Below, in pieces: positions 8,779 to 49,286 of a DNA stretch of 60,761 nucleotides (within the stretch, counting starts at the first letter, position 1; each line of letters opens with the position of its first letter). This DNA is from Desulfamplus magnetovallimortis (GTDB lineage: Bacteria; Desulfobacterota; Desulfobacteria; Desulfobacterales; Desulfobacteraceae): positions 540,042-600,802 of the forward strand of contig NZ_LT828541.1 in the NCBI RefSeq assembly GCF_900170035.1, read 5' to 3'. Made by a program: the position numbers and the translations under genes. The notes below the pieces were generated by a model. It made no database searches. It was not told the DNA's origin and worked only from the letters and a program-made list of their open reading frames with translations.

Positions 8779-9678
8779 TTACCTTTTCATTTTGGGATCA
8801 AGGGCATCCCTTAATCCATCTCCGGCAAGATTAAAGGCCAGAACAGTCAGCAGAATTGCAAGTCCCGGAAAGGTCACAACCCACCATGCCCGCTGGACAA
8901 ACTGGAGAGAATTGGCAAGCATAGCTCCCCATTCCGGAGTTGGAGGCTGTGCTCCCATACCAAGAAAACCAAGAGCTGCGGCATCCAGAATTGCAGATGA
9001 AAAGCCAAGGGTTGCCTGTACAATAAGAGGTGCCATGCAATTGGGCAGAATAACCACAAACATCATCCTAAATGGACCTGCTCCGCTCACCCTTGATGAT
9101 GTGACGTAATCCTTGCTTTTTTCTCCAATTACAGATGCCCTTGTAAGCCTTACGTAGTGGGGAAGCACAACAACTGCAATGGCAAGAATGGCATTCTGAA
9201 GGCTTGGCCCCAGAATGGCTACAATGGCCATTGCAAGCAGAAGGCTTGGAAGGGCAAGCATTATATCCATAAGACGCATTACAACTGTTTCGTAGAATCC
9301 ACCAAAATATCCGGAGGTAATGCCCAGAAAGATACCCACAGCAAGTGAAAGCGTAACAACAATTACGCCCACAAAAAGGCTTAACCTTGCACCAAAGATA
9401 AGTCGGGAGAGAATATCTCTGCCAACATCATCTGTACCAAGAATAAACTCTGTTGTTCCTCCATCCATCCAGAATGGAGGTTGAAGGATTGCATCTCTGT
9501 ATTGGGTAAAAGGGCTGTGTGGTGCAATGAGATTTGCAGAGATTGCAACAAGAATGGCTATACCTATAAACCATAATCCTGCAACAGCACCTTTGTTTTC
9601 ACTAAAGTATTTCCAGAACTCCTTTAAGGGATGGGGAGGGGAAATGTTATTTTCAGCAATAATAGCAGTTTCATTCAT
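8779..9678 (-). CDS. dppC: Dipeptide ABC transporter permease DppC
   Basis: The product is a 299-residue inner-membrane permease with about six hydrophobic segments, forming one half of the translocation channel with DppB. The N-terminal OppC-type cytoplasmic tail is followed by a membrane segment at about 32-52, and the inner-membrane component (BPD) signature with its EAA loop, including RVSGAGPFRMMFVVILPN, lies at about 200. The ending GDGLRDALDPKMK is the family's conserved tail. It is separated from dppB by 56 bases and from dppD by 12. Confidence 0.95.
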   Translation of the reverse strand: MNETAIIAENNISPPHPLKEFWKYFSENKGAVAGLWFIGIAILVAISANLIAPHSPFTQYRDAILQPPFWMDGGTTEFILGTDDVGRDILSRLIFGARLSLFVGVIVVTLSLAVGIFLGITSGYFGGFYETVVMRLMDIMLALPSLLLAMAIVAILGPSLQNAILAIAVVVLPHYVRLTRASVIGEKSKDYVTSSRVSGAGPFRMMFVVILPNCMAPLIVQATLGFSSAILDAAALGFLGMGAQPPTPEWGAMLANSLQFVQRAWWVVTFPGLAILLTVLAFNLAGDGLRDALDPKMKR

Positions 9679-9734
9679 ATCTATAGTCTCTTTCCCGCAA
9701 TTTAAACCTGATTATATCCTGAAGGTAAACATGA

Positions 9735-10745
9735 TCAAGCTGTATGTCGTATTCTTGGGTTTACAATACCATAAAGAATATCAACAATGAGATTGACAAA
9801 TATTACTAAGGAGGAGATCATTAGAATTCCACCCTGAACAACAGGATAATCACGTCTGTTTATAGCTTCAACAATCCATTTGCCTATGCCTGGCCAGGCA
9901 AAGATGGTTTCTGTGAGAATGGCACCTGCAAGGAGTACTCCTATCTGAAGACCAATAACTGTAATAACCGGAATCAGGGCGTTTCTTAAGGCATGTACCA
10001 TAACAACACGTGATGGAGAAACTCCTTTTGCCCTTGCAGTACGGACATAATCTTCCTGAAGTACCTCAAGCATGGAAGACCTTGTCATCCTTGCAATTAC
10101 AGCAAGCGGAATGGTGCCAAGTACAATTGAAGGGAGTATCAGGTGACTTAAAGCAGATTTGAATGCCCCAGGCTCATTGGAGCGCAGTGTGTCAATTAGC
10201 ATAAAACCTGTGTCAGCATCAATCCAGAAAAGCGCTGATAGACGGCCTGACACCGGCGTCCATCCAAGCTGAACTGAGAAAAAGAGAATCAGAAGAAGTC
10301 CCCACCAGAAAATGGGCATGGAGTAACCGGTCAGGGAGATGCCCATAACAGAGTGATCAAAAATAGTACCCCTCTTTACACCGGCAATTACACCGGCGGG
10401 CAAACCAAAGATGATAGCAAATATTATGGCGCAGAAAGAGAGCTCCATGGTGGCAGGAAAAAGAGTTAAAAATTCTTTTAATACCGGCTTTTTTGTCACA
10501 AAGGATTTCCCAAGGTCCCCTTTAAATACGCCTGTAATATAATCAAAATACTGAACAGGAAGTGGTTTGTCCAGCCCCATTGCAGCTTTCATTTCAGCAT
10601 GGCGCTTTGGATCAATACCGCGTTCACCTGCCCTTAATTCCACAGGATCTCCTGGTATAAGATGAACAAGGGAAAAAGTTAAAAGCGTAACTCCAATAAA
10701 AGCTGGTATGATTTGTAATAATCGTTTGGCAAGAAATTGAATCAT
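9735..10745 (-). CDS. dppB: Dipeptide ABC transporter permease DppB
   Basis: The product is a 336-residue permease subunit. The start MIQFLAKRLLQIIPAFIGVT and the segment SLVHLIPGDPVELRAGERG are hallmarks of DppB, including the periplasmic loop that precedes the binding-protein-dependent transport domain. The EAA loop is visible as ARAKGVSPSRVVMVHALRNA. The length matches Escherichia coli DppB closely. It is parted from dppA by a 436-base gap packed with F2 repeats, so transcription from the dppA promoter would have to cross them. Confidence 0.95.
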   Translation of the reverse strand: MIQFLAKRLLQIIPAFIGVTLLTFSLVHLIPGDPVELRAGERGIDPKRHAEMKAAMGLDKPLPVQYFDYITGVFKGDLGKSFVTKKPVLKEFLTLFPATMELSFCAIIFAIIFGLPAGVIAGVKRGTIFDHSVMGISLTGYSMPIFWWGLLLILFFSVQLGWTPVSGRLSALFWIDADTGFMLIDTLRSNEPGAFKSALSHLILPSIVLGTIPLAVIARMTRSSMLEVLQEDYVRTARAKGVSPSRVVMVHALRNALIPVITVIGLQIGVLLAGAILTETIFAWPGIGKWIVEAINRRDYPVVQGGILMISSLVIFVNLIVDILYGIVNPRIRHTA

Positions 10746-10925
10746 AATATTGAGGTTCCATCATTTAGATTCTTGTCTCTGATTTTTCGCATATTTGCAA
10801 GAAAATCAAAAAATCCGGCATCTTAAAAGTAGTTATCCTAAAAAAAACTACAAGATTAAGATGAAAAGTTGCAAGGCGAAAATGGCGGGATAAAAGCATA
10901 AGGCAGGGTTTGCAGACTGCCTTTT

Positions 10926-11165
10926 TTATATGAAAGTCCCCGCAAATTGCTGTTTTTATAAAGACTTTCAACACTTCGATTGTGACGGTGAACCGCCATG
11001 TTGGTTATATGAAAATCTCCGTAACGGCCTGTTTTAAAAAAGACTTTCAACCCTTCGAATGTGGCGGCAATCCGCCATGTTGGTTATCAGAAAGTCCCCG
11101 TACTTTAAAGATCTTGGGGACTTTCATGCTTCGCTGTGGCAGATGGGTCTGCCATGGCCGTTATA
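10926..11165. repeat. Three tandem degenerate F2 repeats
   Basis: Three successive units (about 10926-11007, 11008-11087, 11088-11165) each contain ATGAAAGTC or ATGAAAATC, then GACTTTCA, then a GCGG...CCGCCATG stem, and end near GGTTAT or CGTTAT. They occupy most of the 436-base dppA-dppB gap. The remaining part (10746-10925) shows only an A/T-rich stretch with a weak inverted repeat around 10780-10810 and no gene. Confidence 0.7.
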
Positions 11166-11181
11166 CTAAAAGCTTCTGTGT

Positions 11182-12777
11182 TTATTTGAGGTCAACCCCA
11201 TAGAAAATATGACCGCCAAAAGGGTCAATTTTGTAATCAACCACATTTTGACTCATGGGTTCAAATACAACAGAATGTGCAATGGTAACCCAGGGCGCCT
11301 GCTCCTTGAAGATCATCTGAGCCTCTTCATAAAGCTTTGTCCTCTCCTCTATATTTGAGGTAAGTTTGGCTTTCTGAAGCAGATCATCAAATGGTTTATA
11401 GCACCAGCGTGCGCGGTTTGAACTTCCCACAGCATCACAACTGAGAAGTACAGCCAGGAAGTTATCAGGATCACCATTGTCTCCTGTCCATCCAAGCAAT
11501 ACTGTCTGATGCTCTCCATTCATTGAACGTTTAAGGTACTCTCCCCACTCATATGAAACTATTTTTGCCTTTACCCCAACTTTTGCCCAGTCTTCCTGAA
11601 TAATTTCAGCCATTCTTCTGGCATTTGGGTTGTATGGACGCTGAACAGGCATTGCCCAGATATCTGTCTCAAAACCATCTGCATACCCTGCTTCAGCAAG
11701 AAGAGCCTTGGCTTTTTCCATATTATACTCATAATCTTTTACAGCATCATTATATGACCAGATTGTAGGCGGAATAGGGTTTTTGGCAATTTTTCCAGCA
11801 CCCTGGAAAACAGCGTCAATGATGGCCTGTTTGTTAATGGCCATGCTCAATGCCTGACGTACCCTTGCATCTTTGAAATGATCCATTGTTACATTAAATG
11901 CAAGGTATCCAACATTTAATCCTTCCTGCTCCATAAGGTTTATGGCGGGATCGTTTTTCATCTGCTCAAGATCAGCAGGATTTGGATAAGGCATAAGATG
12001 GCACTCTCCTGCCTTGAGTTTTGCATAGCGTACAGATGCATCAGGTGTAATTGTAAAAACAAGCTTGTCTATTTTTGCACGTCCCTGCCAGTAAGTTTCG
12101 TTTGCAACATAGCGTATTGATGAATCTTTCTGATAGGATACAAATACAAATGGGCCTGTTCCAACAGGTTTCTGGTCAAACTCGTCAGGAGTAGAAGCCT
12201 TAAGCATATTGTCTGCATATTCAGCAGAATGTATGGAAGCAAAATCCATGGCAAGGTTTGCAATAAATGGGGCTTCTGGTTTTGTCAGGGTGAATACAAC
12301 TGTATAATCATCCTTTTTTTCAATGGATTTAATAAGTTCCTGCATATTCATGCCGGTAAAGTATTCATAGCTTCCGCCTGATATTTTGTGATATGGATGG
12401 TTGGGATCCCTTTGACGGTCAAATGAAAAAATAACGTCATCTGCATTGAATTTACGTGTGGGTGTAAAAAAAGAGGTGGTATGAAAATCAACGTTTTCTC
12501 TAAGATGAAAAGTGTAAACAGTTCCATCATCAGAGACATCCCAGGAAGTTGCAAGACCAGGAACGATTTTAGTTGTACCTCTCTCAAAGTGCACAAGTTT
12601 GTCAAATATCTGTCTTGACGATGCATCAAAGGTTGTGCCAGATGTGTAGAGTGCAGGAGTAAAACCTTCGGGGCTTCCCTCTGAACAGTAAACAAATGTT
12701 TTGGCATGTACGGATGCGGTTAGCATGACCAGTGAAATTCCCACAGCCAAAGCGGTAACGCAGTTGCGCAATTTCAT
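11182..12777 (-). CDS. dppA: Dipeptide-binding periplasmic protein DppA
   Basis: The product is a 531-residue periplasmic solute-binding protein of the SBP_bac_5 (peptide/nickel) family, delivering dipeptides to DppBCDF. A standard signal peptide ends at about residue 25 (ASVHA). The mature N-terminus, KTFVYCSEGSPEGFTPALY, is strikingly like Escherichia coli DppA, and so are SGGSYEYF, VGTGPFVFVSYQKDSSIRY and MPVQRPYNPNARRMAEIIQ. From memory of that family the match is higher than expected between phyla. The ribosome site AGGAGA precedes the ATG. It is the promoter-proximal gene of the dpp set; the 280-base divergent gap to the ferritin-like gene holds no recognised operator. Confidence 0.96.
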   Translation of the reverse strand: MKLRNCVTALAVGISLVMLTASVHAKTFVYCSEGSPEGFTPALYTSGTTFDASSRQIFDKLVHFERGTTKIVPGLATSWDVSDDGTVYTFHLRENVDFHTTSFFTPTRKFNADDVIFSFDRQRDPNHPYHKISGGSYEYFTGMNMQELIKSIEKKDDYTVVFTLTKPEAPFIANLAMDFASIHSAEYADNMLKASTPDEFDQKPVGTGPFVFVSYQKDSSIRYVANETYWQGRAKIDKLVFTITPDASVRYAKLKAGECHLMPYPNPADLEQMKNDPAINLMEQEGLNVGYLAFNVTMDHFKDARVRQALSMAINKQAIIDAVFQGAGKIAKNPIPPTIWSYNDAVKDYEYNMEKAKALLAEAGYADGFETDIWAMPVQRPYNPNARRMAEIIQEDWAKVGVKAKIVSYEWGEYLKRSMNGEHQTVLLGWTGDNGDPDNFLAVLLSCDAVGSSNRARWCYKPFDDLLQKAKLTSNIEERTKLYEEAQMIFKEQAPWVTIAHSVVFEPMSQNVVDYKIDPFGGHIFYGVDLK

Positions 12778-13057: not shown

Positions 13058-13513
13058 ATGAATTCAAATGACTATAAAGAGATAATACAATATGCCATCA
13101 ACCTTGAAATTGAAGCTGAGATATTCTACACAAAGGTTGCGGAAAAAGTAAGTGATTCATATCTCAAGGAGATGTTCAAAGCCTTTGCCGGAGAGGAAAA
13201 CAAGCACAGGGAAATTCTCACAAATCTGATGGTCAAGGGTGACGCTGGCGGCTTTTTTGGTAAGAGTAAGGATTACGGCATATCCTCAACAGTTGAAAAG
13301 CCAAGAATTACTGAAAAAATGACATTGGCTGATGCATTTGCAATTGCCATGAAAAACGAGGAAAATGCCATGAAAATGTATCATAAAATGGCTGATGACT
13401 GCAAGGACGACAAGATTAAAAAAGTATTTATAGATCTTGCAGAGATGGAAAAAGGTCATAAACATAAAATGGAGACATCCTATACTGAAGTGGCTTATCC
13501 TGAAGCGTGGTAA
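13058..13513 (+). CDS. Ferritin-like/rubrerythrin-type di-iron protein
   Basis: This 151-residue all-helical protein has the rubrerythrin/ferritin-like diiron pattern: EIEAEIFY early, EENKHREIL at about 50, ENAMKMYHKM at about 105 and EMEKGHKHKM at about 132, giving the paired E and ExxH ligands. No rubredoxin domain is attached, so it is a short rubrerythrin-like protein, probably used against peroxide or oxygen in an anaerobe. A strong AAGGAG site precedes the ATG. Its TAA is four bases before the ATG of pylSn, so the two genes are almost certainly co-transcribed. Confidence 0.85.
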   Translation: MNSNDYKEIIQYAINLEIEAEIFYTKVAEKVSDSYLKEMFKAFAGEENKHREILTNLMVKGDAGGFFGKSKDYGISSTVEKPRITEKMTLADAFAIAMKNEENAMKMYHKMADDCKDDKIKKVFIDLAEMEKGHKHKMETSYTEVAYPEAW

Positions 13514-13517
13514 TCTA

Positions 13518-13871
13518 ATGTCGTCAGCAAAAAATTCTGTAAAAACCAAAACCAGGAAACGATATTACAGAAAACGCATCGAACTTTTCAGGCTTATTGA
13601 TAAAATAAAATTATGGCCATCCAGAACAGGAGTCCTTCATGGGATTAAAACCATTGAAAAAAAAGGAAATATTGCCATTATAACAACCCATTGCAATAAA
13701 ACCTTTGAGGTTAATAACTCCCGAAACAGCAGAGCTGCCAGACTCTTGAGAAATAAAATTTTTAATAAAGTCTGCGGAACATGCAAAATACCGGAATGGA
13801 AACTTGAGAAGTTTGATGCCACCCGTTTCAGTCGGAAAAGTGGCTCATTTTTAAATCAAACAAATGCTTGA
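13518..13871 (+). CDS. pylSn: PylSn, N-terminal tRNA-binding part of split pyrrolysyl-tRNA synthetase
   Basis: This 117-residue basic protein matches the N-terminal domain of pyrrolysyl-tRNA synthetase, which in bacteria is a separate protein that binds tRNA-Pyl tightly and assists the catalytic PylSc. Visible hallmarks are LWPSRTGVLHGIKTIEKKG, FEVNNSRNSRAARLLRNK and the closing CGTC; compare archaeal PylS, with LWMSRTGTLHKIKHHE and VNNSR...RTAR...RHHKYRKTC. The conserved RTG, NNSR, RAAR and zinc-ligand CxxC elements are all present. The open frame extends upstream into the ferritin-like gene; ATG 13518 gives the family-typical length. The cognate tRNA lies 560 bases downstream. No PylSc, PylB, PylC or PylD gene is in the window, so they must be elsewhere if the system works. 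Confidence 0.93.
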   Translation: MSSAKNSVKTKTRKRYYRKRIELFRLIDKIKLWPSRTGVLHGIKTIEKKGNIAIITTHCNKTFEVNNSRNSRAARLLRNKIFNKVCGTCKIPEWKLEKFDATRFSRKSGSFLNQTNA

Positions 13872-13909
13872 TTTGTTTTCAAAAAACTTTTAAATTAAAC
13901 ACTTTTGTA

Positions 13910-13990
13910 TAACGTACATGGCTGATCAACGCCACAATCGAAGGGATGAAAGTCGTTTTAGAAACAGGCTGTTACCGAGACTTTCATATA
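13910..13990. repeat. F2 repeat
   Basis: This unit reads AACGTACATGGCTGATCAAC through CGAAGGGATGAAAGTCG to GAGACTTTCATATA. Read from its ATG at 13918 it is open (MADQRHNRRDESRF...) and continues into the adjoining F1 relic. Confidence 0.85.
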
Positions 13991-13994
13991 AAAA

Positions 13995-14220
13995 ACTCAA
14001 AGCTGACACCTATGATCTTTTGTGCTTTGTTAATAACTCAAAGTGGACACCTATGATCTTGTAAGCCTTGTCAACACTGTCTGAATCAGGATTCCCAAGA
14101 TTAACAAGATAAGGCAGGATTATCTATCCTGAGCATCCTATCCATCCTATCCATCCTGGTTATCCTGATTCAGACAACTGCAATAACTTATGCAAAAGCA
14201 ATAAGATGTCGATTTTGAGT
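13995..14220. repeat. F1 repeat with a duplicated left-end relic
   Basis: A 40-base left-end relic (13995-14034) is followed by a complete F1 copy (14036-14220) running from ACTCAAAGTGGACACCTATG to AAGATGTCGATTTTGAGT. The central palindrome pairs CTGAATCAGGATTCCCAAG with the complement of CTGGTTATCCTGATTCAG. Confidence 0.85.
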
Positions 14221-14225
14221 AATAA

Positions 14226-14360
14226 TGTCTGAATCAGGATACCCGAGATTAACAGGATAAGGCAGGATTATCTATCCTGAACATCCTTTCCATCCTGGTT
14301 ATCCTGATTCAGACAAATAAAATAATTGCTGATAAATCAATACACGATGTCGTTTTTTAG
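14226..14360. repeat. F1 repeat lacking its left terminus
   Basis: A second F1 core (GTCTGAATCAGGATACCCG to CCTGGTTATCCTGATTCAGAC) follows the previous copy directly. Its right end is diverged (GATGTCGTTTTTTAG). It lies just upstream of the tRNA-Pyl region. Confidence 0.8.
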
Positions 14361-14393
14361 TAATAAACAGGCATGTTGATTACGTATTAATCA

Positions 14394-14431
14394 CCTCCAA
14401 ATATAAAAACGATAGTCATTTTAACGGTAAA
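14394..14431 (+). repeat. F3 stem-loop element upstream of tRNA-Pyl
   Basis: CCTCCAAATATAAAAACGAT then AGTCATTTTAACGGTAAA matches the F3 consensus found three times at 23171-23338 and once, inverted, at 46699-46741. It ends four bases before the first base of the tRNA. It may carry or overlap the tRNA promoter, but no convincing -35/-10 pair with standard spacing was found. Confidence 0.6.
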
Positions 14432-14434
14432 AAA

Positions 14435-14507
14435 GGAGAATGGATCGGATGTGATCATGCGGACTCTAAATCCGCACAGCCGGGTGCAACTCCCGGATTC
14501 TCCGCCA
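14435..14507 (+). tRNA. pylT: tRNA-Pyl (CUA anticodon, decodes UAG)
   Basis: The gene folds as a cloverleaf with the peculiar tRNA-Pyl traits. The acceptor stem GGAGAAT (14435-14441) pairs perfectly with ATTCTCC (14497-14503), followed by discriminator G and an encoded CCA. There is a single base between acceptor and D stems, a GATC/GATC D stem with a short loop, and a six-pair anticodon stem TGCGGA/TCCGCA closing the loop CTCTAAA, with anticodon CTA at 14466-14468. The variable loop is three bases (CAG), and the T loop TGCAACT lacks the usual TTC. These features match known archaeal and bacterial tRNA-Pyl and not an ordinary suppressor tRNA. With pylSn at 13518 it points to UAG decoding as pyrrolysine in this organism. 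Confidence 0.95.
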
Positions 14508-14516
14508 CAAACCATT

Positions 14517-14705
14517 TCATGAGATTCCTGAATATTCCAAGGCTCTTGTGATTTCAAGATTATAATGACTTTTTTGTTTCTGTTTGTTCCAAATATACGC
14601 TGCCCAATGTCCCTTGAAATTATCCTTTCTTGTGAACCTCACTTGCTGTTTGGATTTCAGACAGTTCAGATGCTGGAGAAATAATTCATTAATGGGCCTC
14701 AACAT
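14517..14705 (-). CDS. Small hypothetical protein overlapping hicB end
   Basis: A 62-residue basic reading frame starts with ATG inside the last codons of hicB (17-base overlap) and ends in TGA nine bases from the 3' end of tRNA-Pyl, convergent with it. The product is rich in Lys and aromatic residues (KGHWAAYIWNKQKQK) and has no recognised domain. The hicB overlap suggests translational coupling, but no strong ribosome site is visible, and it may be the decayed end of another gene. Confidence 0.35.
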   Translation of the reverse strand: MLRPINELFLQHLNCLKSKQQVRFTRKDNFKGHWAAYIWNKQKQKSHYNLEITRALEYSGIS

Positions 14706-15102
14706 TTTGCTGCAAATGGCTTTCAACCGCATTACAGATGAACTTTGATCGATCAAGTCCCTTTCGATTTTTAAGAAATTCACCGACTCTATCCAATAAA
14801 TCAACAGGAATCATAACATTAATCCTTTTTTTGGGTCGATACGCTTCCATTGCCTTTTCTGCTGGCATTACAGGAAAGACAAGCTCACCGTCTTTTGCCT
14901 CTGCCTGAATTTCTTCATATCCTCTCGGGTCACCATATTCACGTCCCTTTCTACCAAGTACCATCATGGCACTCAAGGCATCAATCGCCATTTCAATTGC
15001 TTCATCGACAGTTTCTCCGCAAGTGTTCACAGACGGTGCATCAGGGAACCTGACACTCCATTGACCATCCTCTTGAAAAAAGATACCGTAATATCGAACC
15101 AT
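14689..15102 (-). CDS. hicB: HicB-family antitoxin
   Basis: The 137-residue product combines the HicB fold with a C-terminal DNA-binding tail. The N-terminal segment YYGIFFQEDGQWSVRFPD followed by GETVDEAIEMAIDAL is the partly degraded RNase H-like HicB domain. The C-terminal part (INVMIPVDLLDRVGEFLK then SRSKFI-like RSKFICNAVESHL) looks like a ribbon-helix-helix module used for autorepression. It neutralises HicA, encoded 44 bases upstream, in the usual hicA-hicB order. Confidence 0.85.
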   Translation of the reverse strand: MVRYYGIFFQEDGQWSVRFPDAPSVNTCGETVDEAIEMAIDALSAMMVLGRKGREYGDPRGYEEIQAEAKDGELVFPVMPAEKAMEAYRPKKRINVMIPVDLLDRVGEFLKNRKGLDRSKFICNAVESHLQQNVEAH

Positions 15103-15146
15103 AACAACTCCCTTTAAATTCTAAGGGGCATTTTGCTCCCCCTCCC

Positions 15147-15320
15147 TTATTTGTCTGCTTGTTTCAGGATTGTTTTTGCCAATCCTTCACCGATCTTTGA
15201 GTGTCTGGGAACTGTGAATCTGTAACCGTTTTTGCTTTCCCAAACTTCATGACCAGAACCTTGACATATGAGGAAAGCCCCTTTTTCCTTGATCTTTTTA
15301 ATCAGCAGATTCTTTTTCAT
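15147..15320 (-). CDS. hicA: HicA-family mRNA interferase toxin
   Basis: This 57-residue toxin has the small dsRBD-like HicA fold that cleaves mRNA. Its conserved core is GSGHEVWESKNGYRFTVPRH, with the catalytic histidine in GSGHEVW, and the ending GLAKTILKQA is the usual helix. The open frame reaches upstream to 15344, but ATG 15320 has a GAAGGA site six bases before it. It pairs with the downstream hicB. Toxin-antitoxin genes this close to tRNA-Pyl suggest an accessory insertion point. Confidence 0.85.
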   Translation of the reverse strand: MKKNLLIKKIKEKGAFLICQGSGHEVWESKNGYRFTVPRHSKIGEGLAKTILKQADK

Positions 15321-15349
15321 GTGCATTCCTTCTTTCATAAACAAAATAT

Positions 15350-15751: not shown

Positions 15752-15919
15752 CTGTCAAGATTATTCTGCACAAAAGAACATATTCGTTCTATTGTGGAGC
15801 GTGAGTGTGTCATTTTTGATAAGAAGAAGGTTGGAAAGCAAGTGTGGGAGCACTACACTGAAACCTACGACTATTTTCAAAAGTTGCATGATGCGGGGTA
15901 TTTATCAGACACAATATAA
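15752..15919 (+). pseudogene. Unrecognised C-terminal coding remnant
   Basis: After a TGA at 15749-15751, an open frame of 55 codons reads through to TAA at 15917-15919. It contains IVERECVIFDKKKVGKQVWE and YDYFQKLHDAGYLSDTI, which look like genuine protein sequence. It lacks an ATG start and its upstream part is absent. The stop codon lies at the edge of the following F2 repeat. The family is not recognised. Confidence 0.3.
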
Positions 15920-15999
15920 AACGTACATGGCGGATGCCCGCCACAATCGAAGAAATGAAAGTTGTTTTAAAAACAGCTATTTATTGAGACTTTCATATA
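15918..15999. repeat. F2 repeat, in frame with the exonuclease gene
   Basis: This is nearly identical to the copy at 20830 over more than 75 bases. From its ATG the repeat is open (MADARHNRRNESCFKNSYLL) and runs in frame into the exonuclease coding sequence at 16005, so it could add about 26 residues to that protein. Confidence 0.85.
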
Positions 16000-16004
16000 A
16001 AATT

Positions 16005-16517
16005 ATGAAAATTATAAGACCAAATATAATTGATGTTGAAGCATCCGGCTTTGGACCGGAAAGTTATCCCATTGAAATAGGTTTTGTCACGACTTCCAGA
16101 AAACGCTACTCTACATTGATTATGCCGCATGAAAACTGGAACCACTGGGATCCGGAATCTGCCAGAATTCACAACATAACAAGGGATCTGCTTAATAGAC
16201 ACGGCAGACCGCTGGGTGAGGTTGCAGAGTATCTCAATAAAATTTTCAAGGGTGAAACTGTTTACAGTGACGGATGGGTGGTGGATAAACCCTGGATTGA
16301 CAGGCTTTTTTATGAGGCAAACGCCCAAAGGCTTTTTTCGGTCAGTCCCTTAGAGCTTATTCTGAAGGAAGATCAAATGGAGATCTGGCACAGAATAAAA
16401 ATTGAAGTAATAAAGCAGCTTAAAGCTGAAAGGCACAGGGCAAGCATTGATGCCTATGTAATACAGGAGACTTTTGTCAGAAGCCGGAAAATTCTGTCAG
16501 ATCACCAAGGTATTTAA
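16005..16517 (+). CDS. DEDDh 3'-5' exonuclease domain protein
   Basis: The product is a 170-residue nuclease of the RNase T / DnaQ-like superfamily. The three exonuclease motifs are visible: Exo I IIDVEASGFG (D and E at about residues 9-11), Exo II in YSDGWVVDKPWID, and Exo III HRASIDAY, giving the HxxxxD spacing of the DEDDh class. It would release nucleotides from 3' ends of DNA or RNA; the substrate cannot be told. A frame extending to 15792 includes an F2 repeat and remnant sequence, so ATG 16005 is chosen because the conserved domain begins right there. It overlaps the convergent cbiR by 41 bases. Confidence 0.8.
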   Translation: MKIIRPNIIDVEASGFGPESYPIEIGFVTTSRKRYSTLIMPHENWNHWDPESARIHNITRDLLNRHGRPLGEVAEYLNKIFKGETVYSDGWVVDKPWIDRLFYEANAQRLFSVSPLELILKEDQMEIWHRIKIEVIKQLKAERHRASIDAYVIQETFVRSRKILSDHQGI

Positions 16518-17433
16518 GGGAAGCAGAAAGATCTTCATAATTGAAAACTTCAAGGGAAACAACCCCTGTAAACTCCTTTAGAACATTCAATGTCTCGGCA
16601 ATTTTGTTTTGCGGAGTTTTGTCAAGGGCTTGATGATCCTTTGGAAATTTATTTGTAGGTGCTGGCAAATAATCTGTGTCGTCTGGCAAAATTCCGGAAA
16701 AGGCTTCTTCTCTATTGGAAAAATCAACACCATGCAGATGAACAAGGGGAATTTTGTCTCTGTATTTTTTAAAAACAGCATCAATGCTGTAACCATATTT
16801 TATAAGATGACCTGCATCCACACATACTGACATACCGCAGGCATCAATTATGCCATCCAGATATTCAAAGGGATAATCAAGGGTCTCAATGGATATGGCA
16901 GAAGTATCAGTAAGGCTTTTCGCCAGATGCGACAGACTCGCAAAGGCCATTTCCCTCCATCGGACAACAGTTTGGTCATTCACATCATTATAATTGCATT
17001 TTTTTTTCCTGCCAGCGTATGAATCTGAATTGAAATCAAGATGAAGTGTGTGGGTGGTGGGAGATAAAAGGGCGCATAGCTCCAGCACACTCCTGATTGT
17101 ATCAGATGCCTTTCTGCGAAGAGCAAAAGAGCTGTCTGTCATGGAGATATCAACCGGAAGGTGAATGTTGTACGTTATATCAAACTCCATGGACAATTCC
17201 GCAAGCTCTTTAATTTCAACAGGGGAGGGGAGAACATCAATTGCCTTGCCATTCAGGATAAATGGTCGGCTTTCAAAAAAAAGAAGCTCTATCTCGTCAA
17301 AAAAGGGAGCAAGTTTTATCACATTGGGGATTATTTTGTCAGGATATATAAAAGATGTTGTTGAAAGCCTAAATGGTAATTTTGTTTTTTTTATGGATTG
17401 AAGTGGAGTGTGTAAATTTTCATTGAGTCCCAT
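16477..17433 (-). CDS. cbiR: CbiR-like cobamide remodelling hydrolase
   Basis: This 318-residue TIM-barrel protein is of the xylose isomerase-like/AP-endonuclease 2 superfamily. The opening LPFRLSTTSFIYPDKIIPNV and the metal-site segments HLHGVDF, VDAGHLIKYG and SIETLDYPFEYL fit CbiR. CbiR removes the lower-ligand nucleotide loop from cobamides so they can be rebuilt with a preferred base. Assignment rests on family memory plus context: cobS, cobD and cbiB, the nucleotide-loop assembly genes, lie 1-4 kb away on the same strand. An AAGGA site precedes ATG 17433. It could alternatively be an unrelated sugar-phosphate isomerase of the same fold. Confidence 0.72.
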   Translation of the reverse strand: MGLNENLHTPLQSIKKTKLPFRLSTTSFIYPDKIIPNVIKLAPFFDEIELLFFESRPFILNGKAIDVLPSPVEIKELAELSMEFDITYNIHLPVDISMTDSSFALRRKASDTIRSVLELCALLSPTTHTLHLDFNSDSYAGRKKKCNYNDVNDQTVVRWREMAFASLSHLAKSLTDTSAISIETLDYPFEYLDGIIDACGMSVCVDAGHLIKYGYSIDAVFKKYRDKIPLVHLHGVDFSNREEAFSGILPDDTDYLPAPTNKFPKDHQALDKTPQNKIAETLNVLKEFTGVVSLEVFNYEDLSASLKYLGDLTEFSGF

Positions 17434-17511
17434 CTTTTTTTCCTTAAGGAAATAAATTAACCATTTATGGCAATATCTTTGTTTGATAGATTGTTTGTAT
17501 AGATATATATT

Positions 17512-17967
17512 TTACCACCAACACTCAGTTTGAAGTTCCGGTTTATGTTTGCTGATTTTATGGTATATCTCGTCTCCACTTACAACTATACATCCTTCAT
17601 AAAGAGCGGTACTGGCAATCATAATATCAATATTGAACTTCTTGATATTCTCCCGACTAATCTTTCCTTTTTGTTTCAAAGTGCATTTTATCTCACCATA
17701 CAAATAAGCCATATCCTCTCGAATCGGTAGGCTGGAAAAATTTGAACGATACTTGAGGTGTTCAAGCGTATTGCGAAGCTCTTGCTTCTTTAGGAGATCG
17801 GAAGTATTGGTAATACTGTATTCTAATTCAAAAAAAGTTAAAACAGAGACAAATAGTTGGTCAGAATCCTGTAATATTCTCAGTTTTTTTAAAATTGAAA
17901 TCTTTTCAGATCTTTGTTTGTTATGATATAAAAGAGATATAGCGTCGGCATCAAAAAGGTATTTCAT
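17512..17967 (-). CDS. PIN-domain ribonuclease toxin (VapC-like)
   Basis: The product is a 151-residue PIN-domain protein. The acidic residues of the active site are visible in KYLFDADAISLL (start), LTFFELEYSI (about 45) and FNIDIMIASTALYEGCIVVS (about 110-130). Such proteins cut tRNA or rRNA as the toxin of a type II toxin-antitoxin pair. The upstream gene ends in TAG two bases before this ATG, as expected for an antitoxin-toxin operon. Confidence 0.8.
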   Translation of the reverse strand: MKYLFDADAISLLYHNKQRSEKISILKKLRILQDSDQLFVSVLTFFELEYSITNTSDLLKKQELRNTLEHLKYRSNFSSLPIREDMAYLYGEIKCTLKQKGKISRENIKKFNIDIMIASTALYEGCIVVSGDEIYHKISKHKPELQTECWW

Positions 17968-17969
17968 AA

Positions 17970-18245
17970 CTATACTTCATTATCATTTTTAAAATGGAAA
18001 TCTTCTCGGAACTCTTTGGATTGCTTTAAAAAATAGTCCCCCACCCCGTTATCCATGAAATCTATATTTTCCATTTCCTGAGCAAGTTGTTCCCATTTGT
18101 TTTGTTTTTTTGATGGTTTGTTTTTGATTTCGGGTTTCACCTTAAGTATAATAGTGAAATTAGTTTCAGGGCTTTCCTTTGATTTCTGTAGCCAAGGGAG
18201 AGGAATATCTTTTCCCTTGATATTATCAAGCACAGTCGTCGGCAT
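17970..18245 (-). CDS. Putative antitoxin partner of the PIN toxin
   Basis: This 91-residue Lys/Glu-rich protein has no clear DNA-binding motif that I can name. Position directly upstream of the PIN gene argues for an antitoxin. The frame continues upstream to 18335 through an F2 repeat, but ATG 18245 (MPTTVLDNIKGK) is the likelier start. The stop is UAG, followed by UUA UGA, so read-through as pyrrolysine would add only two residues. Confidence 0.55.
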   Translation of the reverse strand: MPTTVLDNIKGKDIPLPWLQKSKESPETNFTIILKVKPEIKNKPSKKQNKWEQLAQEMENIDFMDNGVGDYFLKQSKEFREDFHFKNDNEV

Positions 18246-18261
18246 CTCTTTTTCCTTTTTT

Positions 18262-18346
18262 TTATATGAAAGTCTCAGTAAGTGGCTGTTTTTAAAATGA
18301 CTTTCATCTCTTCGATTGTGGCGTGAATCCGCCATGTACGTTTATA
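18262..18346. repeat. F2 repeat (minus orientation)
   Basis: Read on the minus strand it opens with ATG at 18335 and encodes MADSRHNRRDESHFKNSHLL, in frame with the antitoxin gene. This is the second case, after 15918, where the repeat forms a possible N-terminal extension of a host gene. Confidence 0.85.
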
Positions 18347-18387
18347 TGGTTTCAAGCTTCAAGGATATCGTAAGTATAAGGTTATTT

Positions 18388-18561
18388 ACTCAAAATCGAC
18401 ACCTATAATCTCTTGAGCCTTGTCAATAGTGTCTGAATCAGAGAAACCCAAGATTACAAGATAAGCCATGATTATTATCCTGAACATCTTTTTTATCCTG
18501 GTTATCCTGATTCAGACAAATTCAAGAGATGGAAAAAAGTAATAAGATGTCGATTTTGAGT
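18388..18561. repeat. F1 palindromic repeat
   Basis: A complete copy with ends ACTCAAAATCGACACC and GATGTCGATTTTGAGT and the internal GTCTGAATCAG / CTGATTCAGAC palindrome. With the F2 unit it accounts for the 340-base gap between the antitoxin and cbiB. Confidence 0.85.
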
Positions 18562-18585
18562 ATTTATCTGGAAATCTATATTAAA

Positions 18586-19545
18586 TTACATCATAAAAAC
18601 GCAAGTTAGAAGAGAAATAAGAGAAGAGAGCAGCATAAGATCACAGGCCATCCTTATTTTACCCCTGTCAGGTGAAGGAAACTGGCTGCCAAGGTAAGGT
18701 TTTTCAACAAGAGAACCATGATAATAGTTGGGGCCTCCAAGTTTTACAGAAAGTGCTCCTGCAAAAGCTGCCTCCGGAAATCCGGAGTTGGGACTTTTAT
18801 GAAAACGACCTTCTTTAATAGATGTTTTCCATGCCCTTATACCTCTTGCTCCTCCAGGTAAAGACAAAAGAGATGCAGCAATGGAGATAAAAACAACAGA
18901 TAAACGGGCAGGAATGAAGTTTGCTAAATCATCAATTTTTGCAGATGCCCTTCCAAAAAGTATATATTTTTCGTTTTTATATCCAACCATTGAATCCAGG
19001 GTATTGACCATTTTATAAGCCACAGCCATAGGTACCCCACCTACAATTGCAAAAAAAAGAGGTGATAAAAAACCATCCACAAAGTTTTCGGCAACAGTCT
19101 CCACAGTAGCTTTGACAACTCCTGTCTCATCAAGATATTTTACTTCTCTTCCCACAATCATGGATACTTTGAGACGTCCAGCTTCAACTCCTTGTTTTTC
19201 AAGGGCATCTCCAACTTCTGATGCAGCTTTTTCAAGGGTTCTTGCAGAGATGCAGAAAAACATCAGAATGACCTGAACAACTCCTCCTGCCACTGGATGA
19301 ATTAGTGAAAAAAGTAAAATCACAAAATATGCAGCTCCCCATGCAGAAAAGATTAGAAACAGAGCAAAAAGCAATCCGGAGAAAAGCTCCCCGTTGATCC
19401 ATTTTCTAAATCGTGGTTCAAAAAAAGAGATGGCATTGCCCATCCACACCACAGGATGAGGCAGAACCCGAGGATCTCCAAACAAAATATCCAGAAAACA
19501 GGCAGTAACAATAATTATAGAAAAATCATACGAAATATCCATCAT
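18586..19545 (-). CDS. cbiB: Adenosylcobinamide-phosphate synthase
   Basis: This integral membrane enzyme joins (R)-1-amino-2-propanol phosphate (or ethanolamine phosphate) to adenosylcobyric acid. The 319-residue protein has several hydrophobic segments and the family signatures DILFGDPRVLPHPVVWMG, ATVETVAENFVDGFLSPLFF, YKMVNTLDSMVGYKNEKY and FHKSPNSGFPEAAFAGAL. Its ATG overlaps the cobD stop as ATGA, so translation is coupled. The gene is named CobD in some organisms. Confidence 0.95.
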   Translation of the reverse strand: MMDISYDFSIIIVTACFLDILFGDPRVLPHPVVWMGNAISFFEPRFRKWINGELFSGLLFALFLIFSAWGAAYFVILLFSLIHPVAGGVVQVILMFFCISARTLEKAASEVGDALEKQGVEAGRLKVSMIVGREVKYLDETGVVKATVETVAENFVDGFLSPLFFAIVGGVPMAVAYKMVNTLDSMVGYKNEKYILFGRASAKIDDLANFIPARLSVVFISIAASLLSLPGGARGIRAWKTSIKEGRFHKSPNSGFPEAAFAGALSVKLGGPNYYHGSLVEKPYLGSQFPSPDRGKIRMACDLMLLSSLISLLTCVFMM

Positions 19546-20795
19546 GAGGTCACTTTAGAATCCTTTGCACAGCATAATTTTAAAATATCCGCAAGTTTCT
19601 GGTTACTATCCCTGTCCCGTAAAGAAAATCTTACAAAACTATCAGACAGACCATCAAAATTTGCACAATCCCGTATAAGAATTTTATGCCTGCCCAACTC
19701 GTCGCAAAGCTCATGTGATTTAAGTGTTCCTGTCAGTTTTGCAAGCAAAAAATAGGTTTCTCCAGGATAGATATCAAGTTCCAGACCTGCAACAGCATTA
19801 AGGCTATCTGTAAACAACTGTTTCTCCTGTTGTACAAATCGGCGGGTGGTCTCAAGAAATGGAGCTATCAGGGCACTATTTTCAAGTATATGCAGTACTG
19901 CTGCCTGGGCAAGGGCATTTACAGACCATGGCTGATAAAATGTCATTATTTGCTCTGTCACAGAAGGGTCAGCGCAGAGAAAGCCGGTTCTCAAACCCGG
20001 AATTCTGAATATCTTTGACATGGATGATAGAACAATCAGGTTGGGATATCTGGTTTCAGAAACAAGGGATATATTTTCAGCATCAATGACAAAGGGAAGA
20101 TAGGACTCATCAATAATGAAAAAGACATCAGGATGCTCTTTTAATAGCGAGATAAGGTCATCATGTTGAATAAGAGCGCCTGTGGGGTTGTTGGGGTTAC
20201 AGATAAAAACCGTATCAATTTTATGCTCTTTGGCATGGGAATGCAATTGTGTATTTTTATGATTTAGTGTGTCTGATGATGTCAATGACTCTTTTGAAGC
20301 ACCTATTGAAGTACCTATGGAAGCGTCTATTGAAGAGTCACCTGTGTTTTTTGCAGCTCCTCTGCTTCTTGCTATACGCCTGCTTAGGGCTTCAATATCT
20401 GGTTTGAACATATTAGATTCGTCTGCCATTAAAAAATCCAACGGCACATGATGCATTTTGCAACCGTCCCTGTAATCAGCATAGGTAGGCCCTGCAATGA
20501 GAACTCCCTTGGAGCCAAGGGCAAGCGGCAGGGTATAAATAAACCATGTGGTGCCGTTTCCGCCAATAACCCTGTTAAAAGGAATATCGTAAACCTTGCT
20601 GAATGCTGTAACCATATCCCTTGCATCTGGCTGTGGAAGAGATCTCACAGCAGCAATGTTGTTTGCAATAAAGGCTTCAACACCTTCGGGAGGCCCCAGG
20701 GGGTTGATGTTGCTGCTCATGTCTATTATTTCATCAATGGAGCAATGGTTCTGTTTTGCCAAATCCTGAACATTACCCCCGTGACCTGTAATCAT
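19542..20795 (-). CDS. cobD: L-threonine-O-3-phosphate decarboxylase (PLP aminotransferase fold)
   Basis: This enzyme makes aminopropanol phosphate, the linker that CbiB attaches to the corrin ring. Start MITGHGGNVQDLAK, substrate segment GGNGTTWFIYTLPLAL, CNPNNPTGALI, the aspartate in DESYLPF, and the PLP lysine in SSMSKIFRIPGLRTGF are visible. The 417-residue chain is longer than usual because a Ser/Ala/Ile/Gly-rich insertion (DASIGTSIGASKES region, nt about 20240-20365) sits just before the NPNNPTG strand. The frame extends to 20855 but ATG 20795 is the natural start. Histidinol-phosphate aminotransferase is the alternative, made unlikely by the neighbours. Confidence 0.88.
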   Translation of the reverse strand: MITGHGGNVQDLAKQNHCSIDEIIDMSSNINPLGPPEGVEAFIANNIAAVRSLPQPDARDMVTAFSKVYDIPFNRVIGGNGTTWFIYTLPLALGSKGVLIAGPTYADYRDGCKMHHVPLDFLMADESNMFKPDIEALSRRIARSRGAAKNTGDSSIDASIGTSIGASKESLTSSDTLNHKNTQLHSHAKEHKIDTVFICNPNNPTGALIQHDDLISLLKEHPDVFFIIDESYLPFVIDAENISLVSETRYPNLIVLSSMSKIFRIPGLRTGFLCADPSVTEQIMTFYQPWSVNALAQAAVLHILENSALIAPFLETTRRFVQQEKQLFTDSLNAVAGLELDIYPGETYFLLAKLTGTLKSHELCDELGRHKILIRDCANFDGLSDSFVRFSLRDRDSNQKLADILKLCCAKDSKVTS

Positions 20796-20829
20796 TATTT
20801 TCAAACTCCTGTGGTTTAAACAGACAATA

Positions 20830-20940
20830 TAACGTACATGGCGGATGCCCGCCACAATCGAAGAAATGAAAGTTGTTTTAAAAACAGCTATTTATTGAGA
20901 CTTTCATATAGAGGTAAATGGCGGATAACCGCCACAATCA
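20830..20940. repeat. F2 repeat plus partial second unit
   Basis: A full unit (20830-20910) is followed by 30 bases of a second unit (ATGGCGGATAACCGCCACAA). The last bases of the partial unit supply the TGA stop codon of cobS at 20938-20940, so the insertion has redefined the end of that gene. Confidence 0.85.
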
Positions 20941-21678
20941 AATAGCCATTCCTGCTGCAAGAAACATTACAGATTCAGTGACTTCTGTCATGGCTCCCAG
21001 CATATCTCCGGTAATGCATCCCATTTTTCTGCTGTAAAAAAAAAGAATCAGGGATACACATAGGACAAAACAAATATTCAGGATAATCCCTCTGAATCCC
21101 AGAAACAGGGATAAAAAGATCGGAACTGAAATCCAGATAAAATGGGCAAGAGGCAGTCGTTTCTCAAAAAGATCATGGCCTGTTCCTGTTGATTCTCTTC
21201 CATATTTAAAATAACGGATGCCAAAAAGCATTCCCGCTCTTGAATAGGCAGGGATCACAAGAAGGAGCAAAGCAACATCAAGGCCGGAACAGAGATCCTT
21301 TAAAGAATAGATACCGGCAATTTTTATGGCAAAAGACCAGAAAACAGCAACAAGCCCCATCATGCCGATTCTGCTGTCTTTCATAATTTCAAGTGCCCTC
21401 TCTCTGGATCTGTGGCTGAAAAGGCCATCTGCTGCATCTCCAAGGCCGTCAATATGGAAAGCTCCTGTCAATGCCACCAAAACAAGAACATCAATTAGGG
21501 CAACAACAGGTGTCTGCCAGAAAATGGATGCAATAAGATCAGCGCACAGCACTATAAAGCCAAGAATCAATCCCACCACAGGGAAAAAACGAATCATTCC
21601 TGTTGGGGAAAACTCACCCCCCTTTCCTGCCGGTAAAATGGTTATGAACATTATGGCAGAGCGTAAATCTCTCCACAA
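20938..21678 (-). CDS. cobS: Adenosylcobinamide-GDP ribazoletransferase (cobalamin synthase)
   Basis: The product is a 246-residue integral membrane enzyme that joins adenosylcobinamide-GDP to alpha-ribazole, completing the cobamide. The conserved N-terminus IMFITILPAGK, the strongly conserved segment TGAFHIDGLGDAADGLFSHR with its acidic catalytic residues, and RALEIMKDSRIGMMGL identify it. The only fitting start is TTG at 21678, preceded by a short GGA. The stop codon comes from an F2 repeat, suggesting a slightly altered C-terminus. It is upstream of cobD and cbiB on the same strand, separated by the repeat. Confidence 0.93.
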   Translation of the reverse strand: MWRDLRSAIMFITILPAGKGGEFSPTGMIRFFPVVGLILGFIVLCADLIASIFWQTPVVALIDVLVLVALTGAFHIDGLGDAADGLFSHRSRERALEIMKDSRIGMMGLVAVFWSFAIKIAGIYSLKDLCSGLDVALLLLVIPAYSRAGMLFGIRYFKYGRESTGTGHDLFEKRLPLAHFIWISVPIFLSLFLGFRGIILNICFVLCVSLILFFYSRKMGCITGDMLGAMTEVTESVMFLAAGMAI

Positions 21679-46874: not shown

Positions 46875-48089
46875 TTATGAAAGCCGACTTTTGAAATCGT
46901 CATAGCTGAATTGCCTGACCATCTCAACGCACTTTTTGCCATGGGGAACAAGGGCAATGTCAGGCAGTTTTACTCCGTTGAAAGTATTGGTTTTAACCAT
47001 GGAGTAGATTGCCATATCAGTAAATACAAGCCTATCCCCAACCTTGAGTGGCTCATCAAAGGAGTACACTCCTGCAATGTCACCGGCAAGACATGAAAGC
47101 CCTCCAATCCGGCAGGTGTATCTCTTTTCCCCTTGTTTTCCGGAACCCATTATATATGGACGGTATGGTGCCTCCATAACATCAGGCATGTGGGCAGGTA
47201 CGCATGCATCCATTATGGCTATATCCATATCACTGCCTTTTATGATATCAAGAATTGTCACCACAAGAAACCCTGCATTTAAAGCAACAGCCTCACCTGG
47301 TTCAAGATATACCTCAACGCCCCATTTTTGTCTGAATTTTTGTATTGTTGTGATGAGAAGTTTCATATTATATCCAGGACGGGTTATATGGTGTCCTCCG
47401 CCAAAATTGACATATTTCATTTTTCCTATCAGATCACCAAAACCCTTTTCCACTGCCTTGATTGTTCTTTCAAGGCAGTCGGCATCCTGCTCACAAAGGT
47501 TGTGCCAGTGAAGACCTGAAATATCATGGACAAGATCCTCCCTGAAATTGATACGCCTTACACCCAGCCTGGAGCCAGGTGCACATGGGTCATATATTGG
47601 CAGTGCCCCTTCAGAATGCTCAGGATTAATTCGGATACCAATCTCAATCATGCGCCCTGATGCAGAGTTGCTTTTATCAATGATGGGTTTGAAGCGTTCC
47701 ATCTGGTCAAATGAATTGAAAATAAGATGATCCGAGGTATTGCATAGATCAACAATATCAGATTCAGAGTATGCTGCTGCAAATGTATGAACCTCTTTGT
47801 TGAAATTCTCACGGCCAAGCCTTGCCTCATGGGGAGAGCTTGCACATATGCCGTCAAGATAGCTGCGAACCAGTGGAAAAACCCGAAACATTGCAAAACA
47901 TTTCAGGGCAAGCAATATTTTGCAGTTAGTCTGACTGCGAACATGTGAGAGTGTTTCAAGGTTTTGGGCAAGAAGGTTCTCATCAACAACAAAGCAAGGG
48001 CTGACAACTTTCTCAGGATTGAAATTGAGCATTTCAATAATCTTTTCGTATGGAGAATCAATGGCTTCATGATTGACAGATTGAGTCAT
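46875..48089 (-). CDS. nspC: Carboxy(nor)spermidine decarboxylase
   Basis: The product is a 404-residue PLP decarboxylase of the fold-III (alanine racemase-like) group. It removes the carboxyl from carboxyspermidine to give spermidine. The PLP lysine is K63 in ILLALKCFAMFR; HWHNLCEQD, GGGHHITRPGY and DACVPAHMPDV carry other family residues. The start lies one codon after the CASDH stop, in the same reading frame, so a UAG suppressor event would fuse the two enzymes. Ends in UAA. Confidence 0.93.
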   Translation of the reverse strand: MTQSVNHEAIDSPYEKIIEMLNFNPEKVVSPCFVVDENLLAQNLETLSHVRSQTNCKILLALKCFAMFRVFPLVRSYLDGICASSPHEARLGRENFNKEVHTFAAAYSESDIVDLCNTSDHLIFNSFDQMERFKPIIDKSNSASGRMIEIGIRINPEHSEGALPIYDPCAPGSRLGVRRINFREDLVHDISGLHWHNLCEQDADCLERTIKAVEKGFGDLIGKMKYVNFGGGHHITRPGYNMKLLITTIQKFRQKWGVEVYLEPGEAVALNAGFLVVTILDIIKGSDMDIAIMDACVPAHMPDVMEAPYRPYIMGSGKQGEKRYTCRIGGLSCLAGDIAGVYSFDEPLKVGDRLVFTDMAIYSMVKTNTFNGVKLPDIALVPHGKKCVEMVRQFSYDDFKSRLS

Positions 48090-48092
48090 CTT

Positions 48093-49286
48093 CTAATCAA
48101 CCTCTACAGCTTTCCAGGGCAGGCCATATAGATTAAGATTATCCATGAAAGGATCTGGATCAAACTCTTCCATATTCCAGACACCTGGCCTGTGCCATTT
48201 TTTCTCAAGCATCATTTTGGCTCCTATCATGGCAGGAACACCTGTGGTGTAGGAGATGGCCTGGGAGCCGACCTCTTCATAACATGCCTCATGGCTGCAT
48301 ATATTATAGACATAAAGCTTTTTGGGTTGACCATCTTTTATGCCTTTTAGCAGGCAGCCTATGCAGGTACGCCCCTGGGTAAGAGGGCCTAATGATGCAG
48401 GTTCCGGAAGCACTGATTTTAAAAATTTCAGGGGAACCACAGGAGTACCATTGTATTCAACTGTGTCAATCCTGGTCATGCCTACATTTTCAAGCACCCT
48501 TAAATGGGTGAGATACTGCTCTGAAAAGGTCATCCAGAATCGTGCACGTTTAAGCCCCTTAAGGTGCATGACCAGAGATTCAAGCTCTTCATGATACATG
48601 AGATAACATTTCTTTTTGCCGATCTTTTCAGGAAAATCATATGTCATTGACCATGAAAGGGGATCTGTTTCCACCCACTCTCCATGATCCCAGAATCTTC
48701 CCCTCTGTGTAATCTCCCTAATGTTGATTTCAGGATTGAAGTTTGTGGCAAAATGCTGCCCATGATCTCCTGCATTGCAGTCAATTATATCAAGTTCATG
48801 GATCTCATCAAAATGGTGCTTTTGTGCCCAGGCACAAAAAACATTGGTAACTCCCGGGTCAAAGCCTGAACCAAGAAGTGCCATAATACCTTTTTCCAGA
48901 AATTTTTTCTTATATGCCCACTGCCATTTATATTCAAATTTTGCCTCGTCAGGGGGTTCATAGTTTGCAGTATCAAGATAATCAATTCCTGCATCAAGAC
49001 ATGCGTCCATCAATGGTAGATCCTGATACGGAAGAGCAAGGTTAACCACAATGTCAGGTTTGATCCTGTCAAGGAATGATTTTGTCTCTGATACATTGTC
49101 AGCATCAATGGCAAAAGTTGATATTGAGCGGCCGGTACGCTCTTTGATGCTTTGTGCAATGGCATCACATTTATGTATTGTACGACTAGCCAGTATTATT
49201 TCAGAAAAAATTTCAGGGAGTTGAGCACATTTATGGGCTGTGACACTTCCCACACCTCCAGCACCTATAATCAAAATTTTTGACAT
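48093..49286 (-). CDS. Carboxy(nor)spermidine synthase/saccharopine dehydrogenase family
   Basis: The 397-residue NADPH-binding enzyme joins putrescine with aspartate semialdehyde to form carboxyspermidine. ILIIGAGGVGSVTAHKC is the nucleotide-binding motif, and GSGFDPGVTNVFCAWAQKH and DYLDTANYEPPDEAKFEYKW are typical of the saccharopine dehydrogenase-like family member used in this pathway. GGAG nine bases before ATG fixes the start. The stop is UAG (48095-48093), followed by AAG and then the ATG of nspC, all in one frame. Confidence 0.92.
   Translation of the reverse strand: MSKILIIGAGGVGSVTAHKCAQLPEIFSEIILASRTIHKCDAIAQSIKERTGRSISTFAIDADNVSETKSFLDRIKPDIVVNLALPYQDLPLMDACLDAGIDYLDTANYEPPDEAKFEYKWQWAYKKKFLEKGIMALLGSGFDPGVTNVFCAWAQKHHFDEIHELDIIDCNAGDHGQHFATNFNPEINIREITQRGRFWDHGEWVETDPLSWSMTYDFPEKIGKKKCYLMYHEELESLVMHLKGLKRARFWMTFSEQYLTHLRVLENVGMTRIDTVEYNGTPVVPLKFLKSVLPEPASLGPLTQGRTCIGCLLKGIKDGQPKKLYVYNICSHEACYEEVGSQAISYTTGVPAMIGAKMMLEKKWHRPGVWNMEEFDPDPFMDNLNLYGLPWKAVEVD

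Follow-up and report, generated by a model that had tools for sequence, protein, structure and literature searches.

Predicted pyrrolysine system with genes in three places of the Desulfamplus magnetovallimortis genome

Desulfamplus magnetovallimortis, which is related to sulfate reducers, very probably possesses a working and complete system for pyrrolysine, the rare 22nd amino acid, with its genes distributed over three places in the genome (6.68 Mb in 108 contigs, 97.3% complete). The piece held by the window, by which we mean the whole stretch of 60,761 nucleotides analysed here (G000:C2:540042-600802, in contig C2 of 665,663 bases), consists of pylSn and the tRNA gene pylT; pylSc behind a TRAP gene is the second piece, and pylB-pylC-pylD near a methylamine locus the third. 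This reading builds on the observed presence of the genes, their intact reading frames, the family membership of the products, the structure of the tRNA, and the position of the UAG codon in MttB. The system is a new arrangement of known parts and a modest variation on a known one.

The pylSn gene (13518..13871, + strand), which extends from the ATG at 13518 to the end of the stop codon at 13871, codes for 117 amino acids and for the predicted tRNA-Pyl-binding subunit of a split pyrrolysyl-tRNA synthetase. An earlier note, made from the letters of the window, had named this protein from its motifs, and a profile search bears out the identification: residues 19-107 match NCBIfam TIGR03912 with 120 bits (cut-off 51.15, E=4e-35). 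A search of Pfam-A gave no match at E 0.001. The protein further aligns to the structures 5ud5 (E=4.8e-12) and 5v6x (2.2e-11) of the PylRS N-terminal domain. Its residues His41, Cys59, Cys86, and Cys89 coincide with the His/Cys positions of 5ud5, which presumably have a zinc role, and are invariant in 15 sequences. The alignment with 14 relatives contains 38 invariant columns, and one nearly invariant Trp is missing from the window's PylSn alone, which has Ile at residue 81 (alignment A1).

The gene pylT (14435..14507, + strand) starts 563 bases 3' of the pylSn stop codon and is the sole tRNA gene that ARAGORN reports in the window, as tRNA-Pyl(cta). The CUA anticodon, the one base between the acceptor and D stems, the six-pair anticodon stem, and the three-base variable loop, from which tRNA-Pyl had been recognized in the earlier note, are confirmed by ARAGORN, by the fold, and by covariation. 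In the fold, a single base, G8, separates the 7-bp acceptor stem from the D arm, whose loop has 4 bases. The anticodon stem of 6 bp carries the 7-base loop CUCUAAA, the variable loop has 3 bases, the T loop reads UGCAACU, and the molecule terminates in GCCA. Its free energy of -30.1 kcal/mol (z=-2.74) was equalled by 2 of 200 shuffles. Covariation was assessed in 23 tRNA-Pyl sequences, all 73 bases long, that we selected from overlapping lists of 29 and 63 rows with other lengths excluded. The bases pair in 96.6% of the cells, and both sides have changed in 7 of the 23 pairs. Neither value was reached by any of 500 shuffles, and the count of further pair types was reached by 98 of 500. In the window's own tRNA, both the acceptor stem and the anticodon stem contain compensated changes, which the six-pair anticodon stem also displays among the 23 sequences. 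Rfam found nothing at the gathering threshold in the window and one sub-threshold match (E=0.23), and a degenerate tRNA-Pyl pattern applied to the whole genome with up to two mismatches matched once, at pylT. The T loop UGCAACU had been considered as a marker of a 'type B' tRNA, an idea that was dropped because the same loop is present at other loci too.

As the earlier note had stated, other pyl protein genes are absent locally. That note regarded the cluster as dispersed or partly lost and pointed to a search for pylSc, pylB, pylC, and pylD in the rest of the genome. All four were found with intact frames, and each product scores above its curated cut-off; the genes are thus dispersed, and the supposed partial loss does not hold. 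The pylSc gene is located on the same contig as pylSn, 293 kb away (C2:259774-260628), and starts with TTG. Its product scores 309.7 bits (cut-off 178) and has as closest solved structures 3dsq/2zni (E ~1e-85), which we take to be PylSc of D. hafniense. The surrounding 40 kb was inspected for ORFs of 150 aa or more, and no other pyl proteins were seen among these. On a different contig, C15 (locus L015), pylB (11168-12556; 459 bits, cut-off 348), pylC (9772-11118; 390 bits, cut-off 248), and pylD (8849-9784; 224 bits, cut-off 150) follow each other head to tail on the minus strand. PylB carries a His-rich, repetitive insert of ~40 residues between the two stretches matched by the profile.

The search for methyltransferases with in-frame UAG, also proposed in the earlier note, was successful for mttB and mtbB, while mtmB had no match in the genome. 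Both genes are adjacent on C15, 6-8 kb from pylB, and contain one in-frame TAG each (MttB, 734 bits, cut-off 525; MtbB, 516 bits, cut-off 369). Upstream of them lie an MttB-like gene without TAG, a GntR/FCD regulator, and a corrinoid protein (215.6 bits, cut-off 215.3). The UAG of MttB (residue 328) aligns with the X of 7xcl, which is presumably the pyrrolysine of M. barkeri MttB, and with a Lys of 7xcm. In MtbB the UAG is residue 356 if numbering begins at the start chosen for the profile score; a search for solved relatives of MtbB gave no match. Members of the MttB superfamily occur at 13 places in the genome. One of these is interrupted by an internal TAG, and a TAA seen in a different one is located at the end of its reading frame. 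The second UAG gene, mtbB, belongs to a different family. Five stretches of the genome contain 79 long ORFs (>=200 aa) after removal of overlaps, and 11 of these end at TAG, including the two methyltransferase UAGs. Thus, UAG is not strongly avoided as a stop codon, and its suppression must be tolerated or regulated.

That PylSn binds tRNA-Pyl and PylSc charges it is said to go back to Jiang and Krzycki 2012. In the proposed system PylB, PylC, and PylD would build pyrrolysine from two lysines. PylSn would grip tRNA-Pyl and aid its charging by PylSc, and the charged tRNA would decode the UAG codons of MttB and MtbB, which in turn would demethylate trimethylamine and dimethylamine, respectively, with a corrinoid protein as the methyl acceptor. 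We infer the charging, the read-through of UAG, the substrates, and a joint expression of the parts despite their unrelated surroundings. PMC11764691 and PMC3941956 describe the same roles of PylSn in binding and PylSc in charging, and also state that PylSc of D. hafniense can function without PylSn; the former calls the purpose of PylSn unclear.

To place this arrangement among relatives, PylSn was sought in 86 genomes of the family, the source genome included, and exceeded the cut-off in 27 of them. Within the genus, the source genome is the only one of ten with a match, several of the other nine being incomplete. The scan yielded 33 PylSn places, of which the window's own and a weak partial match were set aside; the remaining 31 loci were taken with up to ~10 kb of flank per side where the contig permitted. 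The weak match (L057, G037:C103:133611-133709; 25.8 bits, positions 1-33) lies in an open frame of 417 aa that contains one TAG; PylSc and PylC are present in the same genome. All 31 loci contain at least one of pylB, pylC, pylD, and pylSc. The tRNA gene was found at 27 of them; at 26 it precedes pylSn in the same orientation, and L066 has it on the opposite strand. In the window the order is reversed, pylSn being followed by pylT, which recurs in Desulfacinum (L119-L122). A second scan, of named genomes, gave 156 PylSn relatives; among the best 80 of these, a set overlapping with the family loci, 75 loci include another pyl protein gene. The earlier note's statement that bacterial clusters usually keep the pyl genes together is also found in PMC3941956. 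The five exceptions comprise four loci truncated by contig ends, namely L124 and L142, which start ~100 bases from such an end, and L137 and L177, with a downstream flank of ~1 kb or less, as well as L151 from Desulfococcaceae bacterium HSG9, where 17.8 kb of a 19.4-kb contig contain no other pyl gene. The sole PylSc match of HSG9 (L204) is located with pylT and pylD ~25 kb inside another contig, pylT lying 3 kb before pylSc. HSG9 is thus probably a second case of a PylSn apart from every other pyl protein gene. It resembles the source genome in this respect and in having PylSc elsewhere, and differs in that its tRNA gene accompanies pylSc and pylD instead of pylSn. Such isolation of PylSn is rare among the loci examined, being seen in the window and probably in HSG9. 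Scattering of pyl genes as such occurs in other genomes too; in G056, pylT-pylSn-pylB and pylC-pylD-pylSc are split across two contigs.

The immediate surroundings of pylSn suggest another way to read the separation. A gene of the ferritin-like/rubrerythrin family (13058..13513, + strand; Pfam PF02915, Rubrerythrin, 1.2e-19) ends 4 bases 5' of the pylSn ATG, and judging from this spacing the two plausibly form an operon, although the ferritin-like gene has no known tie to pyrrolysine. In a similar manner, pylSc begins 20 bases 3' of the stop codon of a TRAP fused permease gene, with GGAG in front of its start. The two subunits might therefore be under separate regulation, PylSn being expressed with the ferritin-like protein and PylSc with the transporter in response to different signals, so that UAG would be read only when both are on. 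However, none of the 31 family loci and none of the best 80 of 156 named-genome loci (overlapping sets) has the ferritin-like gene, and a conserved ferritin-pylSn pair was rejected on these grounds. The closest ferritin-like genes of five genus relatives (69, 59, 58, 59, and 58% identical) have other surroundings, and a promoter scan gave 11 sites compared to 7.9 (sd 2.5) in shuffles. Regulatory decoupling of this kind is improbable.

The earlier note had also considered that pylSn and pylT could be the relic of a decayed system that no longer decodes UAG. This would fit the lack of other pyl protein genes near the pair, and decay can occur in the family, as is indicated by G057 (L060), which we take to be Desulfobacterium autotrophicum HRM2. 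Its chromosome of 5,589,073 bases, listed as 100% complete, keeps pylT, pylSn, and pylB together, and PylSc and PylC had no match there at E 1e-20, which makes it a candidate for a partial or relic pyl system. In PMC3639795, D. autotrophicum was kept among the organisms with tRNA-Pyl and pylS. In the source genome, however, the relic reading fails because intact PylSc, PylB, PylC, and PylD and the two UAG-bearing methyltransferases are all present, and the compensated changes in the tRNA stems also speak against it. We consider it very improbable for D. magnetovallimortis.

The idea that one real cluster was misjoined during assembly at dispersed repeats hardly deserves credence: a repeat copy does lie between pylSn and pylT, and a similar-looking stretch behind pylSc was spotted by eye (it is not among the scored repeat matches), but pylSn and pylSc are located deep in one contig with unrelated genes on both sides of each, the separation is also seen in G056 and HSG9, and the most similar further copy of the repeat, among the 40 of 557 candidates that received a score, shows 95% identity over 130 bases, so that a misjoin is not forced. 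The copy in question (14074..14203, + strand) belongs to a family of ~130-base repeats and is followed by a second one at 14226-14342 with 82% identity to it. The repeats reported in the earlier note between pylSn and pylT are real, and a particular tie of them to the pyl locus was rejected, because the family is dispersed over the genome with at least 42 matches (scores cover 40 of 557 candidates).

Several other features of the window were observed. A second repeat family (AACGTACATGGC...) was spotted by eye at ~13910-13995 and 15916-16005. A HicB-like and HicA-like toxin-antitoxin pair (14689-15344, - strand) adjoins pylT. From 2 kb past pylT, corrinoid genes follow on the minus strand (16480-21678), namely cbiR for cobamide remodelling, cbiB, a cobD-like gene below the cut-off, and cobS; corrinoid is needed by methylamine methyltransferases. 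At 46875-49286 (- strand), a carboxynorspermidine synthase-like gene (405 bits, cut-off 800) and nspC (464.6 bits) are in the same frame, separated by a TAG and one Lys codon. Read-through of this UAG would yield a fusion protein of 803 aa, and the joined frame may be due to chance.

The preferred reading, a complete system in three places, can be compared with known cases. According to PMC3941956, pyl genes usually cluster, in bacteria in the orders pylTScBCDSn or pylSnScBCD, and this clustering is usual and not required. The bacterial split system with PylSn and PylSc has the same five proteins, the tRNA, and the UAG in mttB and mtbB in common with the source genome. It is clustered, however, whereas in D. 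magnetovallimortis the genes occupy three places, with pylSn beside no pyl protein gene and pylSc behind the TRAP gene. The marine Deltaproteobacteria of PMC8318568, which use both pyrrolysine and selenocysteine, show conserved gene neighbourhoods with the Pyl trimethylamine methyltransferase near the pyl genes. The location of pylBCD near the methyltransferases is similar here, but the tRNA and both synthetase subunits are encoded away from the methyltransferase locus. A separated gene is also described in PMC3941956 for 'Ca. Methanomethylophilus alvus', whose pylB is ~0.7 Mb from the other pyl genes. This organism is archaeal, has no PylSn, and keeps pylTSCD together, whereas in the source genome the synthetase subunits themselves are apart. 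Literature searches in an open-access collection turned up no paper whose title or abstract opening reports pylSn and pylSc at a great distance within one bacterium.

With respect to descent, quick trees place most parts of the system with the family. PylSc falls into a set of 20 rows (support 84) that comprises, next to the window's organism, 10 rows from genomes of its family, 6 rows labelled Desulfobacteraceae, and 3 further rows. Sets of like composition, mostly of the same family, contain PylB (28 rows, support 95), which is on a long branch (0.84), and PylD (22 rows, support 97). PylC pairs with G056 only (98) and does not clearly group with the rest of the family. The window's PylSn lies outside a clade of 28 rows with most of the family sequences (support 98; 27 rows and 98.8 in the rebuilt tree). 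Forcing it into this clade costs 1.7 log units and is not rejected (AU p=0.47), so that neither transfer nor a foreign origin of PylSn is claimed. A separate 'type B' PylSn/tRNA pair shared by the window, D. joergensenii, and Desulfobacula found no support either, as a family clade including these rows is not rejected (p=0.44). The PylSn tree is based on 120 columns, and many of the tree rows come from metagenome bins. The AU-tested PylSn tree lacks L090 and L132, and the quick trees of the other Pyl proteins lack L132 and short fragments. The simplest reading of these trees, suggestive and not proven, is one early-branching pyl system of the family whose genes were scattered later.

A more speculative possibility is that PylSn together with tRNA-Pyl constitutes an autonomous module, which is separable from PylSc and can multiply independently. 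This would be in line with the distance between the pair and pylSc in the source genome and with Desulfospira joergensenii DSM 10085 (G060; L073, L088), which has two PylSn, two different tRNA-Pyl, and one PylSc match. Ca. Desulfobacula maris (G030; L065, L089), a 94% complete draft, shows the same numbers, and going by these gene counts one catalytic subunit is possibly shared by two PylSn-tRNA pairs in both organisms. In HSG9, however, the tRNA gene sits with pylSc and away from pylSn, and we regard the module as rather unlikely. A single pyl cluster of G081 (L077/L181) also contains two different tRNA-Pyl genes, at a distance of 2.8 kb from each other. If the module exists, a single catalytic subunit would serve two tRNA adaptors in D. 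joergensenii. This would differ from the organisms with two PylRS genes in PMC9071458, which are archaeal and have no PylSn. Those relatives in which two PylSn-tRNA pairs accompany one PylSc offer a natural test of the role of PylSn. For draft genomes, the scattered genes are a warning that a pyl gene absent from the cluster is not necessarily lost. More generally, the arrangement in D. magnetovallimortis suggests that the subunits of bacterial pyrrolysyl-tRNA synthetase can come from separate operons and that an expansion of the genetic code can persist in scattered form.
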